DNA of 64,000 nt, taken from the NCBI RefSeq assembly GCF_009856825.1, contig NZ_WVTD01000011.1, positions 1 to 64,000 on the forward strand, in the 5' to 3' direction. The first letter of the stretch is position 1; each line of letters opens with the position of its first letter. The translations under genes and the position numbers were made by a program. Below are positions 29,585 through 61,247 of the stretch, piece after piece. A model generated the notes under the pieces. It made no database searches. It was not told the origin of the DNA and saw nothing but the letters and a program-made list of their open reading frames with translations. The DNA is from Novosphingobium silvae. GTDB lineage: Bacteria; Pseudomonadota; Alphaproteobacteria; Sphingomonadales; Sphingomonadaceae.

Positions 29585-30343
29585 TCAAGGCGTGAAGCGG
29601 AAGTATGCGACCAGGCGCGAGCCGTAATGCCGGTCGGTCCAGGGGGAGGATCGGTCCACCTCGCTGGCGCCGATGGAAGTGCCGGAATAGCGCACACCGG
29701 CCGCGAAGCTGGATTCAGCGTATTCGGCGCCGAGGTGATGATCGAGATAATCGCCGCCCGGTCGCAGGCGAGCCGAGCGTGGGTCGCCGTCCTTCGTTGA
29801 CCCGCTGGTGTGGCCCACACCGCCGTAGAGGGTCAGGGGTGTGCCGGGAATGCCCGCGGAGAGCCGGGCGTCGACGTAGAGGTTGCTCCCCCCGATCGCG
29901 TCCTGCGATGGGGCAAAGGCCGCTCCGACCGAGAGTTGCGCCAGGCCGAGCGTGCGCGAGACCTGTCCCGTCACCTCGACATAGCTGGTGCCCGAGCGTC
30001 CGATAAACAGGTTGCCGCGCACTCCGACGTCGAACTCCCAACCGGCGGCCTGCATGCTGTAGCGCGGCGCGATGCCGACACCGATGTCCGCGCCGCCATG
30101 ACGAGCGCTTTCGCGCAGCGTCACGGCGTCCATGTCGAGTGCGAGGTCATAGGTGACGGGCACGGTAGCGCCGATGCCGAGCGCGGCCTTGCCGTCGCTC
30201 CATCCAAGGCCGCGCTCGCGGTGATCGGTTTCCGCCTCGAAGGAGATCGACGGCGCGGACTGCGCGGCTGCCGGAGCAACCCAGGCGGTGGCGAGCAGAA
30301 TGGCACCGCAGCAGGCACCGGTCGTCCGGAAGGGTCGCGTCAT
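29585..30343 (-). CDS. TorF-like outer membrane beta-barrel protein
   Basis: The 252-residue product has a signal peptide (GAILLATAWVAPAAAQS) followed by alternating hydrophobic/polar beta strands rich in Gly, Tyr and Ser (YSMQAAGWEFDVGVRGNLF, LYVDARLSAGIPGTPLTLYGGVGH) and a terminal aromatic strand ending AYFRFTP, typical of outer-membrane barrels. The overall pattern matches the TorF putative porin family, with which I equate it tentatively. The next gene upstream, 18 nt away on the same strand, encodes another exported protein, so they may be co-transcribed. Confidence 0.75.
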   Translation of the reverse strand: MTRPFRTTGACCGAILLATAWVAPAAAQSAPSISFEAETDHRERGLGWSDGKAALGIGATVPVTYDLALDMDAVTLRESARHGGADIGVGIAPRYSMQAAGWEFDVGVRGNLFIGRSGTSYVEVTGQVSRTLGLAQLSVGAAFAPSQDAIGGSNLYVDARLSAGIPGTPLTLYGGVGHTSGSTKDGDPRSARLRPGGDYLDHHLGAEYAESSFAAGVRYSGTSIGASEVDRSSPWTDRHYGSRLVAYFRFTP

Positions 30344-49079: not shown

Positions 49080-49409
49080 CGGCGGCAGCGAATGGCCGGG
49101 CGGCAGCGATCGCCCGGATCCGTCATGAGGCGGCCGGGCAAATACGGCCCAATGGTGCGACGATCAGTTTTTGCAGGTGAGGGCTGAAATGTCGGCCGGA
49201 AAATGCTGCCCTATGGGCCTGCACATGGTTGTGCTCAACTGTTCGCCGACGGGATCAAACGACTGAGCCGAAGCGGAAGCATGCGGGGAACGCATCGGCG
49301 TTCTCGCGGTTATCGTGAGTGAAGGCCGGCGCGGCGCTTCCCCCACCCCTCCCGAGCTGCGCCGGCCGACATACCTCCCAAAAACAGAGAGGATTGGCCG
49401 AGCTACTGG
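49080..49409. other. Gene-free spacer after uvrA
   Basis: Two hairpins are visible: CCGGGCG...CGCCCGG at 49096-49117 just after uvrA, and GGCCGGCGC...GCGCCGGCC at 49324-49367 just after the convergent rlpA-like gene. Neither has a strong T-tract. The rest shows no gene. Confidence 0.5.
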
Positions 49410-55616: not shown

Positions 55617-56237
55617 CTAGCCTGCTGCCACGTCCTTTTCGGGCGGGAATGACAGGTGCGCCATCAGATTGTCGATGAAGGCCTCGTGCTGCGTTTTCGT
55701 GCCGCTGCCGCCGGGACGGATCAGCAGGTCCGAGCGGTAGCCGAGCACGGCAGCGACGGTGACCTGCGTCAGCCGTTCCGCGTCTTGGGGCCGAAAGCGG
55801 GTGGCGAAGAACTCGGTGATGCACGCGCGCATTTTCGAAGGCCCCCGCGCATAGAACATCTCGTTGATTTCGGGGAAACGCTCCCCTTCGGCAACCACGA
55901 GCCGGTACAGGAGCATCGAATTTTCATTCTGCAGGCAGTCGATGAAGCGCAGGCATGCCCGCCGCAGCGAGGCCGGGGAGAACGTCTGCCCGGTCAGTAC
56001 CTCGTCGATATCGCGCGAGAATGTTTCGACGTGCTTGTCGATCACGGCGGCGAAGAGATCTTCCTTTGCGGCAAAATGGGCCCAAAGCGTGGCTTTGGAC
56101 CCGCCAAGCGCGTCAGCGATCGCGGACATTGTTGTGGCCGCATAGCCCTGCTTGAAGAAGAGGCGCGTGGCGACCTTCACGATCTCGTCGCGCTTGCGTG
56201 CCTTGTTGAGCTCTCGTTTTCCCATCAATTCCGTCAT
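55617..56237 (-). CDS. TetR-family repressor of the adjacent efflux operon
   Basis: The 206-residue protein has an N-terminal HTH: ARKRDEIVKVATRLFFKQGYAATTMSAIADALGGSKATLWAHFAAKEDLFAAV, the typical TetR pattern, followed by a helical ligand domain. Divergent transcription from the efflux operon, with two matching GTAC-N6-GTAC operator sites between them, indicates that it represses both units. The ATG at 56237 or the one at 56225 may be the start; the first is drawn here. Confidence 0.93.
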   Translation of the reverse strand: MTELMGKRELNKARKRDEIVKVATRLFFKQGYAATTMSAIADALGGSKATLWAHFAAKEDLFAAVIDKHVETFSRDIDEVLTGQTFSPASLRRACLRFIDCLQNENSMLLYRLVVAEGERFPEINEMFYARGPSKMRACITEFFATRFRPQDAERLTQVTVAAVLGYRSDLLIRPGGSGTKTQHEAFIDNLMAHLSFPPEKDVAAG

Positions 56238-56241
56238 AGTC

Positions 56242-56257
56242 GTACCACTCAGTACGC
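56242..56257. promoter_or_regulatory. TetR operator O1
   Basis: GTACCACTCAGTACGC contains GTAC-N6-GTAC and starts 5 bp upstream of the drawn TetR start. It matches O2 at GTACC, AGTACGC and one central T. Confidence 0.7.
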
Positions 56258-56264
56258 TTTTCGT

Positions 56265-56294
56265 TTGACAGGTTCAAGCAACACTTCGTAAAAA
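56265..56294 (+). promoter_or_regulatory. Efflux operon promoter
   Basis: TTGACA (56265-56270) and TAAAAA (56289-56294) are 18 bp apart, between the two operators. Transcription would start at about 56301, almost at the ATG at 56303. Confidence 0.6.
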
Positions 56295-56296
56295 AT

Positions 56297-56312
56297 GTAC
56301 CGATGAGTACGC
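56297..56312. promoter_or_regulatory. TetR operator O2 overlapping the start codon
   Basis: GTACCGATGAGTACGC is the second GTAC-N6-GTAC site. It contains the ATG of the outer membrane factor gene (56303-56305), so repression would block the predicted transcription start directly. Confidence 0.7.
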
Positions 56313-57763
56313 AAATCAAACCACGATTCGCGGCGGCTTCGCTGCTGGCGATCTCCCTTTCCCTGGCCGGATGCATGGCGCCCGACCTTGGTCCGCGCCC
56401 GCAGCTCACAACGCCAGGTGCGCTTGAATCTACCAAGGCGCTTGCTTCCGCGCGGGCGGCCACGGAGTGGCCGCAGGAGCGCTGGTGGACGGTCTACGGC
56501 GATCCCCAGCTCGACGCGCTGGTCGAGGAGGCGCTCGCCGGATCCCCCAGTGTCGCTCTTGCGCAGGCGCGTATCCGCCAGGCGCGGGGCGCGGCAGGTG
56601 TGGCCGGAGCCGACCTCCTGCCGACGCTTGGGGGGCAAGCGTCCGGCGGGCTGACCAAGCAGAGCTACAACAACGGAGTCCCGAGCGACTTCGTTCCCAA
56701 GGGCTGGAAAAGCACGGGCACTCTTGCGCTTTCGGGCGATTTCGACCTCGATCTCTGGGGGGCGAACCGCAAGGCGCTTGCGGCGGCGACTTCCGAGGCC
56801 GAAGCTGCCGAGGCCGACGCCAGGCAGGCGGAGCTGATGATCTCCAGCAATGTCGTTTCCTCCTACTTCGACCTGGCGCGTCTGCTGGAGCGGGGCAGGG
56901 CGCTCTCGGACGCGACCGAGGCGCGGCGTTCTTTCGTGGACCTCACTGGCCAGCGCGCTCGCGAGGGGCTCGACAATCTTGCCCCTCTCCGCCGTGCAGA
57001 GTCCGCCGCCGCCGCATCGCGCGCGGAGCTTTCTGCGAACGAGGAGCAGGTGCTGCTGCGCCGTCATGCGCTCGCGGCGCTGCTCGGCAAGGGCCCCGAC
57101 CGGGGGCTTGCCATTACGCCTCCCGCCATCGCCACAGTCCCGGTCTCGGGTATTCCCGCAGATGCGGGCATCGCCCTTGCGGGTCGGCGGCCCGACATCG
57201 TCGCCGCGCGCCTGCGCGCCGAGGCGGCGGGTGCGCGCATCGATCAGGCCAAGGCGGCGTACATGCCCAACATCTCGCTTCGCGGGCTGTTCGGCCTGAC
57301 CTCGCTTGGGCTCTCCAACCTGATCGACAGCGGTTCCACCTACGGCAACGTGGGCGGTGCCCTCAGCCTGCCGATCTTCCAGGGCGGACGCCTGAGGGGC
57401 CAATACACGCAGGCGCGCGGCGGCTATGACGCGGCAGTAGCCAACTACAACGAGACCGTGGTCGGCGCCCTTCAGGAAGTCGCCGATGCGCTCGCCAGCC
57501 GTGAGGCTGCGTCCAGTCAGGAAGTCGATGCGGCAGAAGCTGCCCGCACGGCGCAGATCGCCTACGATCTATCCATGCAGCGCTTCCGTGGCGGGCTTTC
57601 CAACTACCTCGATGCACTGACGTCGCAGACTGCCGCGCTGGAAGCGCGCCGGGCCGCGATCGATGCCCATTTCCGTACCCTCGCCCTGGAGGTCGCGCTG
57701 CAGCGCGCACTTGGCGGCGGGTTCGAAGACAATTCCAGCAAGAAGGCTTCCGACGATGAGTGA
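56303..57763 (+). CDS. NodT-family outer membrane efflux lipoprotein
   Basis: The 486-residue product is the TolC-like exit duct of a tripartite pump. The signal RFAAASLLAISLSLAGC gives an N-terminal lipoprotein. Two repeats of long coiled helices include EWPQERWWTVYGDPQLDALVEEALAGSP (entry domain) and LRAEAAGARIDQAKAAYMPNISLRG in the second. The ATG at 56303 lies within operator O2 and has no ribosome binding site, suggesting leaderless translation. Its stop overlaps the next gene. Confidence 0.92.
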   Translation: MSTQIKPRFAAASLLAISLSLAGCMAPDLGPRPQLTTPGALESTKALASARAATEWPQERWWTVYGDPQLDALVEEALAGSPSVALAQARIRQARGAAGVAGADLLPTLGGQASGGLTKQSYNNGVPSDFVPKGWKSTGTLALSGDFDLDLWGANRKALAAATSEAEAAEADARQAELMISSNVVSSYFDLARLLERGRALSDATEARRSFVDLTGQRAREGLDNLAPLRRAESAAAASRAELSANEEQVLLRRHALAALLGKGPDRGLAITPPAIATVPVSGIPADAGIALAGRRPDIVAARLRAEAAGARIDQAKAAYMPNISLRGLFGLTSLGLSNLIDSGSTYGNVGGALSLPIFQGGRLRGQYTQARGGYDAAVANYNETVVGALQEVADALASREAASSQEVDAAEAARTAQIAYDLSMQRFRGGLSNYLDALTSQTAALEARRAAIDAHFRTLALEVALQRALGGGFEDNSSKKASDDE

Positions 57764-58934
57764 TGATGTGCAGCACCAGCCTGCTGCCCCTGCAGACAAC
57801 GAGGGTGCGCCTTCGCGGCCGTCGGGCGGAAGCGTGGTCGGCAAGAAGAACCGCAAGCCGCTGCTGATCGGTCTGGCAGTGGCGGTGGTGGTGATCGCCG
57901 CCGCCGTGCTCCTGTACGACATCTTCATCGGCAGCCGCTCGGTATCGACAGACAACGCCTACGTCGGTGGAGAGAGCGCGGAGGTGACCCCGCTCACGGC
58001 CGGACAGGTGGTGGAAGTGCTCGTCACCGACACGCAGCCGGTGCGCAGGGGGCAGATCCTGTTCCGCCTGGACGACAAGGACCAGCGCATCTCGCTCGCG
58101 CAGGCGCAGGCCCAGGTCGAATATGCCACCCGTCGGTATGGCCAGTCGCTTGCCAATAACAACGCGCTGGGCGCCGCAGCCGATGCCAGCGCAGCGCAGA
58201 TCAGCTCCGCGCAGGCCAAGCAGGCTTCGGCGCAGGCCACGCTGGAACGTGCGCAGGAAGACTATCGCCGCCGCGCCGCGCTGGCCGAAGGCGGCGCCGT
58301 CTCGGGAGAGGAACTGACCTCCGCTCGCCAGGCGCTCGCGTCTGCCCGCGCCGCTGCACAGGAAGCCGCCGCCGCCGTCGTCCAGGCGCGCGCCAACACC
58401 AACAGCGCCCGCCGCCAGGAAGAAGCGGCCGTTGCCCTGACGCGCGGCACCTCCAACCAGACCGCGCCCGAGATCCTGCTCGCCAAGGCGCAGCTCGCCA
58501 ACGCCAAGCTGGCGATGGAACGCACCGTGGTCCGCGCGCCGATCGACGGTGTCATCGCGCGCCGTTCGATCCAGGTCGGGCAGAAGGTGGAAGCGGGCAC
58601 GGTCGCGATGATGATCGTGCCGGTCGGCCAGCTCTACGTCGATGCCAACTTCAAGGAAGACCAGCTCGGCAAGGTCCGCTCGGGCCAGACCGCGATTGTT
58701 ACCTCCGACTTCTACGGCGACGATGTGAAGTACCATGGCAGGGTCGTCGGCTTTTCGGGCGGCACGGGCGCGGCGTTCTCGCTGATCCCGGCGCAAAACG
58801 CGACCGGCAACTGGATCAAGGTCGTGCAGCGCCTACCGGTGCGCATCGAGCTGGACCCGCGCGAGCTCAAGCAGCACCCGCTGCGGATCGGCCTTTCGAT
58901 GGAAGCCGAGATCGACCTGACGAGTAAGGACTGA
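57756..58934 (+). CDS. EmrA/HlyD-family membrane fusion protein
   Basis: The 392-residue adaptor bridges inner-membrane transporter and outer-membrane duct. A cytoplasmic tail precedes one transmembrane helix at about 36-54 (LLIGLAVAVVVIAAAVLLY); then come STDNAYVGGESAEVTPLTAGQV, a long Ala/Gln coiled-coil hairpin from about 110 to 240 and VRAPIDGVIARRSIQVGQKV. It overlaps the outer membrane factor stop by 8 nt and the transporter start by 1 nt. Confidence 0.93.
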   Translation: MSDDVQHQPAAPADNEGAPSRPSGGSVVGKKNRKPLLIGLAVAVVVIAAAVLLYDIFIGSRSVSTDNAYVGGESAEVTPLTAGQVVEVLVTDTQPVRRGQILFRLDDKDQRISLAQAQAQVEYATRRYGQSLANNNALGAAADASAAQISSAQAKQASAQATLERAQEDYRRRAALAEGGAVSGEELTSARQALASARAAAQEAAAAVVQARANTNSARRQEEAAVALTRGTSNQTAPEILLAKAQLANAKLAMERTVVRAPIDGVIARRSIQVGQKVEAGTVAMMIVPVGQLYVDANFKEDQLGKVRSGQTAIVTSDFYGDDVKYHGRVVGFSGGTGAAFSLIPAQNATGNWIKVVQRLPVRIELDPRELKQHPLRIGLSMEAEIDLTSKD

Positions 58935-60490
58935 TGGCGAGCGCGGCAGCGGGCAATCCGGCGCGCGCGCCGGCTGAGCCGCAGTTCACCGGCGCGCGGC
59001 TCGTCCTGGCGGGCTTCGTTCTCGCCATGGCCAACTTCATCGTCGTGCTCGACATGACGATCGCCAACGTCTCGGTACCGCACATCGCGGGCGGCCTTGC
59101 CGTCTCGAACTCGAGCGGCACCTGGGTTATCACCTCGTACGCGGTTGCCGAGGCGATCTGCGTGCCGCTGACCGGGTGGATCACGGGTCGCTTCGGAGCG
59201 GTGCGTACGTTCCTCGTGAGCCTTGCCGGTTTCGGCGTCTTCTCGGCTTTGTGCGGCATGTCGAGCACGCTCGGCATGCTGGTGGCGTTCCGTCTGGGGC
59301 AGGGCCTTTGCGGCGGTCCGCTCATGCCGCTCACGCAGACGCTCATGCTGCGCATCTTCCCCAAGGAAATGCATTCAAAGGCAATGGCGATGTGGGCGAT
59401 GACGGTCGTCACCGCGCCAATTATTGGCCCGATCCTGGGCGGTTCCATTTCTGACAACTGGTCGTGGGAGTGGATCTTCTTCATCAACGTGCCGATCGTG
59501 CTGATCATCTTCTTCGCGCTGATGCACCTGCTCAAGGGCGTGCATACGCCGCTGCAGAAGCTGCCCATCGATGTGGTCGGCCTCGTGCTGCTGGTGATCT
59601 GGGTCGGCGCGTTCCAGATGATGCTCGACCTTGGCCGAGAGGAAGACTGGTTCGCCTCCACCGAGATCATCGCGCTGGCCTGCACCGCCGCGATCTTCTT
59701 CTGCGGCTTCGTGATTTGGGAGCTGACGGAGGAGCACCCCATCGTGGACCTGAAGGTCTTCCGTCATCGCGGTTTCACCGCCGCTACGCTGTCGCTGATG
59801 ATCGCGTTCGGGACCTACTTCTCGGCTGTCGTGGTCATTCCGCAGTGGCTGCAGACCTCGATGGGCTACACCGCGACGCAGGCGGGCTATGCCATGGCGT
59901 TCGCCGGTGTCCTGGCCGTCATCGCCTCGCCCTTCGTGCCCAAGCTGATGCAGAAGTACGACCCGCGCCTGCTCGTGTTCATCGGGATCGCGTGGCTCGG
60001 GGTCTGCGCCTGGGTGCGCACGTACTGGTCGACCGACGCGACGTTCTGGACGATCGCCTTCCCACAGCTGATCCAGGGGGCGGGCGTCTCGCTGTTCATG
60101 GTGCCGCTTACCACCATCAGCCTCTCGGCGGTGCTGCCGGAGGAAACCGCTTCGGCGGCGGGCATCGCCAACTTCGGACGCACGCTGGCGGGCGCAGTGG
60201 CGACGGCCATCATCACCACGATCTGGAGCGATCTTGCGACCACTAACCGGGCGGAAATGGTCGGCACGCTCAACGGGCAGGGGCAGGTGGCAAGGACGCT
60301 ACAGGACACGGGCTTCTCCATGGACCAGGCGCGCGGCTTGATCGATCAACTCGTGGCGCAGCAGGGTCTGGCCCTGGCGACCGTGCACATCTTCCAGATC
60401 TCGGCGGTGGCCCTGTTCATCGCTGCATGCACGATCTGGCTCGCTCCGCGTCCGCCCAGGAACGCCAAGCCGGCTTCCGGCGGACACTGA
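58934..60490 (+). CDS. DHA2-family MFS drug:H+ antiporter (EmrB/QacA type)
   Basis: The 518-residue product has about 14 transmembrane helices. Family markers are NFIVVLDMTIANVSVPHIAGGLAVS in helix 1, the WVITSYAVAEAICVPLTGWITGRFGA motif A-like loop, and GQGLCGGPLMPLTQTLML. It completes a tripartite MFS pump. Substrates cannot be predicted; hydrophobic antibiotics and fatty acids are common for this type. Confidence 0.95.
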   Translation: MASAAAGNPARAPAEPQFTGARLVLAGFVLAMANFIVVLDMTIANVSVPHIAGGLAVSNSSGTWVITSYAVAEAICVPLTGWITGRFGAVRTFLVSLAGFGVFSALCGMSSTLGMLVAFRLGQGLCGGPLMPLTQTLMLRIFPKEMHSKAMAMWAMTVVTAPIIGPILGGSISDNWSWEWIFFINVPIVLIIFFALMHLLKGVHTPLQKLPIDVVGLVLLVIWVGAFQMMLDLGREEDWFASTEIIALACTAAIFFCGFVIWELTEEHPIVDLKVFRHRGFTAATLSLMIAFGTYFSAVVVIPQWLQTSMGYTATQAGYAMAFAGVLAVIASPFVPKLMQKYDPRLLVFIGIAWLGVCAWVRTYWSTDATFWTIAFPQLIQGAGVSLFMVPLTTISLSAVLPEETASAAGIANFGRTLAGAVATAIITTIWSDLATTNRAEMVGTLNGQGQVARTLQDTGFSMDQARGLIDQLVAQQGLALATVHIFQISAVALFIAACTIWLAPRPPRNAKPASGGH

Positions 60491-60495
60491 GAGTT

Positions 60496-60575
60496 CGGCC
60501 GGACGGAAGGAGAGGCATCCCCCAGCCTCTCGAGCAACAGTCTCGCGAGCCCCCACTCGCTCTTCCGTCCGGCCG
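60496..60575. repeat. 80-nt long inverted repeat with internal hairpins
   Basis: Arms of 14 perfect pairs, CGGCCGGACGGAAG (60496-60509) and CTTCCGTCCGGCCG (60562-60575), enclose two further hairpins: GAGAGGC...GCCTCTC (60510-60531) and GCGAG...CTCGC (60545-60560). The three helices can fold as a three-way junction; no T-tract follows. It could be a terminator, a REP-like repeat or a small structured RNA. Confidence 0.6.
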
Positions 60576-60635
60576 TTCCATCTGCGCGGCGCGGCGGGCC
60601 TTGCCTGCGGCGGTGCGCGCCTCCATGCCTTGGCG

Positions 60636-61247
60636 ATGAAGCACGCTCCTCGCCGCCACTCGCCTGCCGCCGCCCGCAACCGCGGCCCCATTCTCGACGT
60701 GCTGCGCGGCGTTCTGCCAGCGACGGGCAGGGTGCTGGAAGTGGCCAGCGGCACGGGCGAGCATGCGGCATTCTTCGCTGCCGCGCTGCCCGGCCTCGTG
60801 TGGCAGCCGACCGATCCGGACGCAGGCGCGCGAGAGTCCGTCTCTGCCTGGCGCGAGGAGGCAGGCTGCGCGAACTTGCTTCCGCCCCTTCCGCTCGATG
60901 CTGCGGACGTGGATTGGCCGGATACCGTCGGCAGGGTCGAGGCGGTGCTGTGCATCAACATGGCCCACATCAGCCCTTGGGCCGCGACCCAGGGACTGAT
61001 GGCGGGGGCTGCGGTTGTGCTGGCGCCGGACGGGGCGCTCGTGCTCTATGGACCGTTCCGGCGCGAAGGACATGCGCTGGAGCCGGGGAACATGGCATTC
61101 GACGAGGACCTGAGGCGCCGCAACGCGGAGTGGGGCCTGCGCAGTGTGGAAGACGTGCGGGCCTGCGCGGCCGATCATGGCATTGCCTTCGACCGGTTGG
61201 TCGAGATGCCCGCGAACAACCTCGTGCTGGTTTTCAGGAATCGCTGA
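60636..61247 (+). CDS. DUF938 family methyltransferase-like protein
   Basis: The 203-residue protein has the DUF938 pattern of a class-I SAM-binding fold: KHAPRRHSPAAARNRGPILDVL at the N-terminus, the SAM motif VLEVASGTGEHAAFFAAALP at about 33-52, VEAVLCINMAHISPWAATQGLM, and LVLYGPFRREGHALEPGNMAFDEDLR. I start at the ATG at 60636; a TTG two codons before is possible. It is convergent with and overlaps the MATE gene by 14 nt at their 3' ends. Function unknown. Confidence 0.85.
   Translation: MKHAPRRHSPAAARNRGPILDVLRGVLPATGRVLEVASGTGEHAAFFAAALPGLVWQPTDPDAGARESVSAWREEAGCANLLPPLPLDAADVDWPDTVGRVEAVLCINMAHISPWAATQGLMAGAAVVLAPDGALVLYGPFRREGHALEPGNMAFDEDLRRRNAEWGLRSVEDVRACAADHGIAFDRLVEMPANNLVLVFRNR

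Follow-up and report, generated by a model that had tools for sequence, protein, structure and literature searches.

What does a long, perfect inverted repeat do directly behind the last gene of an efflux operon? The question is raised by an 80-nt element of Novosphingobium silvae, which lies in a 64,000-nt stretch of contig NZ_WVTD01000011.1 (RefSeq assembly GCF_009856825.1) that is referred to below, as a whole, as the window. A preliminary description of the element had offered three readings, namely a REP/BIME-like mobile repeat, a processing signal and a small RNA domain. A processing or end signal, in the form of an mRNA 3'-end structure, appears to be the most likely of these.

Gene neighbourhood

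The genes around the element are as follows.

55617 to 56237, minus strand: TetR-family regulator, divergent
56303 to 57763, plus strand: NodT-type outer-membrane efflux protein (TIGR01845 above cut-off), first gene of the presumed operon
57663 to 58934, plus strand: emrA-like periplasmic adaptor (PF00529 and PF13437 above cut-off, TIGR00998 below cut-off); the coordinates are those of the first start of the open reading frame and the true start may lie further in
58934 to 60490, plus strand: emrB-like DHA2 MFS permease (TIGR00711 above cut-off)
60630 to 61247, plus strand: DUF938 (methyltransferase-like) gene, co-oriented and downstream of the element; start codon uncertain

The efflux set has the order OMF-EmrA-EmrB. 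Its last gene, emrB, stops 5 nt before the element, which confirms the placement after the efflux operon, and the DUF938 gene begins about 55 nt beyond the element. At the other end of the operon (window 56240-56320), transcription seemingly starts almost without a leader, with TTGACA followed by GTACCGATGAGTAC, inside which the ATG lies. This near-leaderless arrangement recurs in many orthologues whose start could be placed. GTAC repeats at the operon start may act as an operator.

Predicted fold of the element

The element consists of the following parts.

60496 to 60509, plus strand: 5' closing arm CGGCCGGACGGAAG, pairing with the 3' arm
60510 to 60531, plus strand: inner hairpin 1, 7-bp stem GAGAGGC/GCCTCTC, loop ATCCCCCA, C-run predicted to be fully unpaired
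60532 to 60544, plus strand: weak bulged 4-bp hairpin between the two main hairpins, in the predicted fold
60545 to 60560, plus strand: inner hairpin 2, 5-bp stem GCGAG/CTCGC, loop CCCCCA, C-run predicted to be fully unpaired
60562 to 60575, plus strand: 3' closing arm CTTCCGTCCGGCCG, with no T-tract after it

The closing arms are 14 nt each, 100% complementary and separated by 52 nt, exactly as the preliminary description had them. The window has two repeats with perfect arms of 14 nt or more and a spacer of at most 60 nt, namely the element and an intragenic repeat at 30178-30218. By the same criteria, 20 simulated sequences with the window's dinucleotide frequencies gave one pair between them, so such arms are rare by chance. 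Folding of the 80-nt element as RNA, a check that had been proposed, gave -51.8 kcal/mol against -26.95 +/- 3.18 kcal/mol in dinucleotide shuffles (z -7.8), and none of 200 shuffles folded as well. The minimum-energy structure makes up 60% of the ensemble. In this predicted fold, the two main hairpins present the C-rich loops AUCCCCCA and CCCCCA. The element had been called a three-way junction with inner hairpins that abut almost without linkers. The closing stem with its 7-bp and 5-bp hairpins is indeed predicted, but the weak hairpin at 60532-60544 (pair probabilities 0.80-0.96) makes the predicted junction four-way, and it is three-way only if that hairpin is discounted. Likewise, the one-nucleotide gap between the last inner helix and the closing arm is present (U60561, the sole unpaired base of the junction), but 13 nt lie between the 7-bp and 5-bp hairpins.

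The reported absence of a T-tract holds: in the window, no TTTT occurs within 160 nt 3' of the emrB stop, and a terminator scan of 60200-60900 gave 0 matches. No promoter-like site was found in 60200-60900. Rfam gave 0 matches at the gathering score in the window and none in three orthologous loci; below threshold, the only matches over the element were to two microRNA families, both on the minus strand. The lack of a T-tract raises the possibility that the element is part of a Rho-dependent terminator with its C-runs as the Rho-loading sequence. This is possible because C exceeds G both in the element (34 C and 23 G, with C at 11 of the 20 unpaired bases) and in the 100 nt 3' of it (44 C and 32 G). 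Rho loads on long, poorly structured C-rich RNA, whereas the C-runs here are 5-nt pieces within tight hairpins and the first 54 nt past the element are balanced (22 C, 20 G). We therefore regard a Rho-loading role as unlikely.

Copy number

A REP/BIME-like repeat would be expected in several copies. BLAST of the element against its own genome gave one match. Across 61 genomes, its own included, two matched, the other being G031, where the match lies at the same place behind emrB. The pattern AGGC-CCCCC-GCCT of the inner hairpin had 13 matches in the genome and its reversed control 8; among the 13, the long outer stem is present at the element site alone. A covariance model, R2, was built from five relatives with the window left out, and at E <= 0.01 and with strict filters it had one match in the genome, which is the element itself (E 4.6e-4). 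BLAST, pattern and covariance model thus all led to the element site only. The element is extragenic and palindromic, as REP/BIME sequences are, but it is single and, at 80 nt, not a short unit. By copy number it is not a REP/BIME, and that part of the preliminary description is not borne out for this copy. A copy that is single, unconserved and not transcribed had also been named as the outcome that would count against the whole proposal. This holds for copy number and fails for conservation, since the element is kept at this locus in several related species.

Conservation behind emrB

The proposed search of the genome and of relatives, which found one match in the former, yielded similar elements at the same locus in the latter. 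A clearly similar element, termed type 1, occupies the same place in five relatives (L036, L038, L041, L073 and L047). Four of the five are without the window's extra hairpins, so the branched junction itself is not conserved; type-1 elements have in common an outer stem and an apical loop with a C-run. Covariation was likewise among the checks proposed. In the five relatives, 7 of 20 pairs are compensatory (4 of 16 in the outer stem and 3 of 4 in the inner one), against 2.7 in shuffled alignments, with 0 of 500 shuffles as high, a count that comes from five sequences and from a structure chosen after they had been viewed. The number of further pair types in the same five does not rise above the shuffles (185 of 500 as high).

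Across the genus, model R2 gave seven matches in 6 of 149 genomes, all at emrB 3' ends. One of the seven is the minus-strand reading of the same site, and the matches include the window, G093 and G133, none of which was used in building the model. Because its filters were strict and 34 candidates were scored in each genome, this search may have passed over weak copies. On 652 kb, made up of the other 25 orthologous loci, the window and 400 kb of its own genome, R2 recovered the window's element on both strands and one further match at E 0.38. A run of four T within 160 nt after emrB is found in 0 of 8 group-1 loci, which makes intrinsic termination unlikely there. The gene neighbourhood with DUF938 and MATE accompanies seven of the eight type-1 carriers and L047 has MATE alone; DUF938 is also present in three non-carriers (L045, L049 and L051). 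L041 and L073 each have, from 4521, another C-looped hairpin directly before the type-1 element, with the loop GCCCCCGAACA or GCCCCCGTAACA. In L041 the arms of this second hairpin are the type-2 arms described below, in swapped order.

Stem turnover and dispersed palindromes

The 3' ends of emrB orthologues carry several unrelated stem types, one of which is terminator-like, and several ends are without a comparable long hairpin. Type 2, with the arm GGCGGCACCGGC, occurs in L033, L034, L048 and L055 and in looser form in L057 and L066. Its four close members are predicted to form a three-way junction with two C-rich loops, and the covariation in type 2 is weak (2 pairs, with 25 of 500 shuffles as high). 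All six type-2 loci, and many others, have a convergent gene beside them that is putatively CheB-like by our own reading. Type 3 (eight loci) is a hairpin of the form AGCCGCCGACGCC...GGCGTCGGCGGC, followed directly by at least four T in five of the eight loci and by TTT in three.

The stem types are distributed differently over the EmrB tree. Type 3 corresponds to one starred clade and is carried by all eight of its orthologues. Type 1 needs three changes: seven carriers stand in a starred eight-row clade with L049, and the window stands outside this clade on a weakly supported fork. A tree that unites the type-1 carriers in one clade is rejected (p-AU 8e-8; 0.003 when L049 is included), the groups having been named after the tree was seen. 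Type 2 needs six changes, which is no better than shuffled labels.

The covariance model of type 2 led to a family of dispersed palindromes of the genus. These are near-perfect, about 80 nt long and of the form GGCACCGGCCC-N-CTCCCCC...GGGGGAG-N-GGGCCGGTGCC. Copies were read in other Novosphingobium genomes (L119, L122, L125, L126, L147, L149, L151, L152, L155, L156 and L158), and these 11 paired copies have 36-42 predicted pairs. Of 149 genus genomes, 73 contain the palindrome core GGCACCGGCCCNCTCCCCC, at as many as 40 half-sites in a genome; its reversed control has 0 matches in every genome. The core has 0 matches in the window's genome. As a raw count based on a simple gene caller, 9 of 14 loci read (16 were submitted) lie between convergent genes. 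Three palindrome copies gave no Rfam match. Model R3, built for type 2, had three strong matches, all at emrB ends and probably its own source sites, and eight weak ones (E 0.003-0.008) in five other genomes. Six of the eight weak matches are copies of the dispersed palindrome (L119, L122, L123, L124, L125 and L126; the other two are L120 and L121), the copy in L123 carrying an insertion and L119 and L124 being one site on two strands. Type-2 emrB stems and dispersed palindromes have a 12-nt outer arm in common, which suggests that the palindromes may supply new stems at gene ends. Separately, the terminator-like emrB hairpin of Novosphingobium sp. PhB165 is followed closely by a member of the dispersed family (L037:4610-4692), a perfect palindrome whose arms are 34 bp long; similar remnants can be read in L043 and L070.

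Could the element itself be a REP/BIME- or MITE-like mobile palindrome that landed behind emrB? It is extragenic and palindromic, the type-1 carriers do not form one clade, type 2 is clustered no more than shuffled labels, and the type-2 arm GGCGGCACCGGC recurs in a palindrome that is dispersed in the genus. The window's genome, however, holds one copy of the element and none of the dispersed family's core, and under strict filters the type-1 stem was found at emrB ends only in 149 genomes. The DUF938-MATE block beside seven of eight carriers fits inheritance or joint transfer of the block, a point qualified by the three non-carriers that also have DUF938. We consider a mobile palindrome improbable.

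C-rich loops

The stems turn over and the loops recur. The 160 nt past the emrB stop were folded for 38 distinct orthologous emrB 3' ends, and an enclosed unpaired run of at least four C was present in 22 of 38 in the sense direction and in 3 of 38 in the antisense direction. The same measure gave far lower counts at other gene ends, which were located with a GC-frame gene caller of simple design: in the window's own genome 17 of 196 sense and 12 antisense, in four relatives 14 of 187 sense and 14 antisense, and within the orthologous loci 0 of 36 sense and 0 antisense. A genus-wide habit of C-rich loops was for this reason rejected as the sole explanation. Runs of at least five C were found at 16 of 38 emrB ends and at 4 of 187 other gene ends of the four relatives. 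Fisher's exact p against the gene ends of these relatives is 1.6e-11 for at least four C and 5.9e-11 for at least five, values that overstate the case because the orthologues are related and no correction was made for this. The sample was drawn from 44 orthologous loci, of which 30 were kept and 14, with identity of at most 57%, set aside, and from 29 further loci, of which 22 were dropped since their first 60 nt were identical to a row already kept. Six of the left-out rows (L060, L061, L062, L069, L075 and L076), when read by eye, had no comparable C-looped element; counted as negatives, they bring the figure to 22 of 44. Among strong 3' hairpins in 464 kb of the window's genome, 10 of 167 have CCCC loops and 6 of 167 have GGGG loops. 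One long hairpin of the window, at 49324-49367 between convergent genes, has a 12-bp stem and the C-rich loop GCTTCCCCCACCCCTCCCGA.

These loop counts bear on whether the element acts as DNA or as RNA. A DNA-level site, such as a cruciform or a target for a protein or an IS, would agree with the palindromic arms and with the z of -7.5 obtained when the 80 nt are folded as single-stranded DNA. The C-runs, however, are specific to one strand relative to emrB (22 against 3 of 38), which a cruciform does not require, and the position is tied to the 3' end of a gene. A purely DNA-level role is accordingly very improbable.

A loop that is kept while stems differ is what would be expected if the loop pairs with something. 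The element could then be a regulatory RNA derived from the 3'-UTR, either released or bound to the mRNA, whose C-rich loops pair with G-rich sites of other mRNAs, for instance Shine-Dalgarno regions, or bind a protein. Besides the strand bias of the C-runs across stem types, their accessibility fits this reading, with a mean unpaired probability of 0.74-1.0 in 12 elements, as does the fact that types 1 and 2 both contribute to the ends with CCCCCCAGC (9 of 38) and to those with CCCCCAGC (10 of 38, the window included). There are precedents in GsrN of Caulobacter (PMC5869019) and in the 3'-UTR sRNAs described for Rhodobacter (PMC8625941). Against a regulatory RNA stand the lack of a promoter-like site and of an Rfam match noted above, and the 16 of 38 orthologous ends that are without an enclosed C-run, some clades being wholly without it. 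Pairing between the two ends of the operon was considered and rejected: the promoter is near-leaderless, and the operon starts that could be placed offer no G-rich leader before the outer-membrane gene, in a comparison in which some rows have the start of this gene missing or set too far upstream. A regulatory RNA is a possible but rather doubtful reading. More tentative still is its specific form, in which the 3' end of the emr operon would encode a genus-restricted RNA whose functional part is the CCCCCCAGC-like loop on unrelated stems. Induction of the efflux pump would then also release an RNA that targets G-tracts, a built-in sRNA or sponge that would couple efflux to other genes.

A probable operon 3'-end structure

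With middling confidence, we favour the reading that the element is the 3'-end structure of the mRNA of the emr-type efflux operon. A sister clade has a terminator-like hairpin at this place, the predicted structure is extremely stable, and in E. coli it is established that stem-loops can shield mRNA against 3'-5' exonucleases (PMC5927463). The element would be transcribed just past the emrB stop and would fold into a rigid GC-rich hairpin. Such a hairpin could block 3'-to-5' exonucleases, and in this way define or protect the 3' end of the efflux mRNA and uncouple it from the downstream DUF938 gene. With no U-tract present, a transcript that ends here would depend on Rho, on pausing, or on endonucleolytic cleavage and subsequent trimming as far as the hairpin. 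The element is dispensable, since 16 of 38 orthologous ends have no enclosed C-run and several have no comparable long hairpin.

Stem and U-tract are the features by which hairpins at operon ends are usually assessed, the loops being regarded as free to drift. C-rich loops are not needed for a 3'-end role and point to a second function, perhaps base pairing. Their presence at this locus in many related species on differing stems makes the element probably an mRNA 3'-end structure and possibly an sRNA. When a C-rich loop keeps returning at one locus while its stems are of several unrelated kinds, the pattern is what one would predict for an RNA whose action depends on the loop. Should this be so, induction of drug efflux would bring a regulatory RNA along; should it not, the locus still illustrates clearly how stems turn over where a conserved operon ends. 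Among the matches listed in our search of open-licence papers, none described an RNA element behind emrB in Novosphingobium or the dispersed palindrome; one of them deals with the action of a noncoding RNA on emrB mRNA in Proteus (PMC8508932).

Comparison with known systems

REP/BIME sequences (PMC12306157) resemble the element in being extragenic, palindromic and 3'-terminal. Their unit in E. coli is described as 14-40 nt long, whereas the element has 80 nt and is single-copy here. Intrinsic terminators are alike in position and in having a GC-rich hairpin, and the sister clade has such a hairpin at this place with at least four T after it in five of eight loci; the window and the other group-1 loci, in contrast, have no T-tract directly after theirs. 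In GsrN and other alphaproteobacterial sRNAs that bind their targets through C-rich loops, the conserved part is a C-run in a hairpin loop, and GsrN of Caulobacter is described as acting through a 5' C-rich loop that pairs with a G-tract in the katG leader (PMC5869019). The likeness is one of loop, and the element differs in sitting behind an efflux operon with no promoter of its own found. The stem-loops that protect mRNA 3' ends, of the malE-malF type and as described for programmed operon decay (PMC5927463), differ from the element, which is a junction whose C-rich loops are seen again in relatives and whose protective role is putative. They share with it a multi-gene transcript, presumed in its case, no need of a U-tract and, as is found here just past the emrB stop codon, a stable stem-loop structure at or after the stop.
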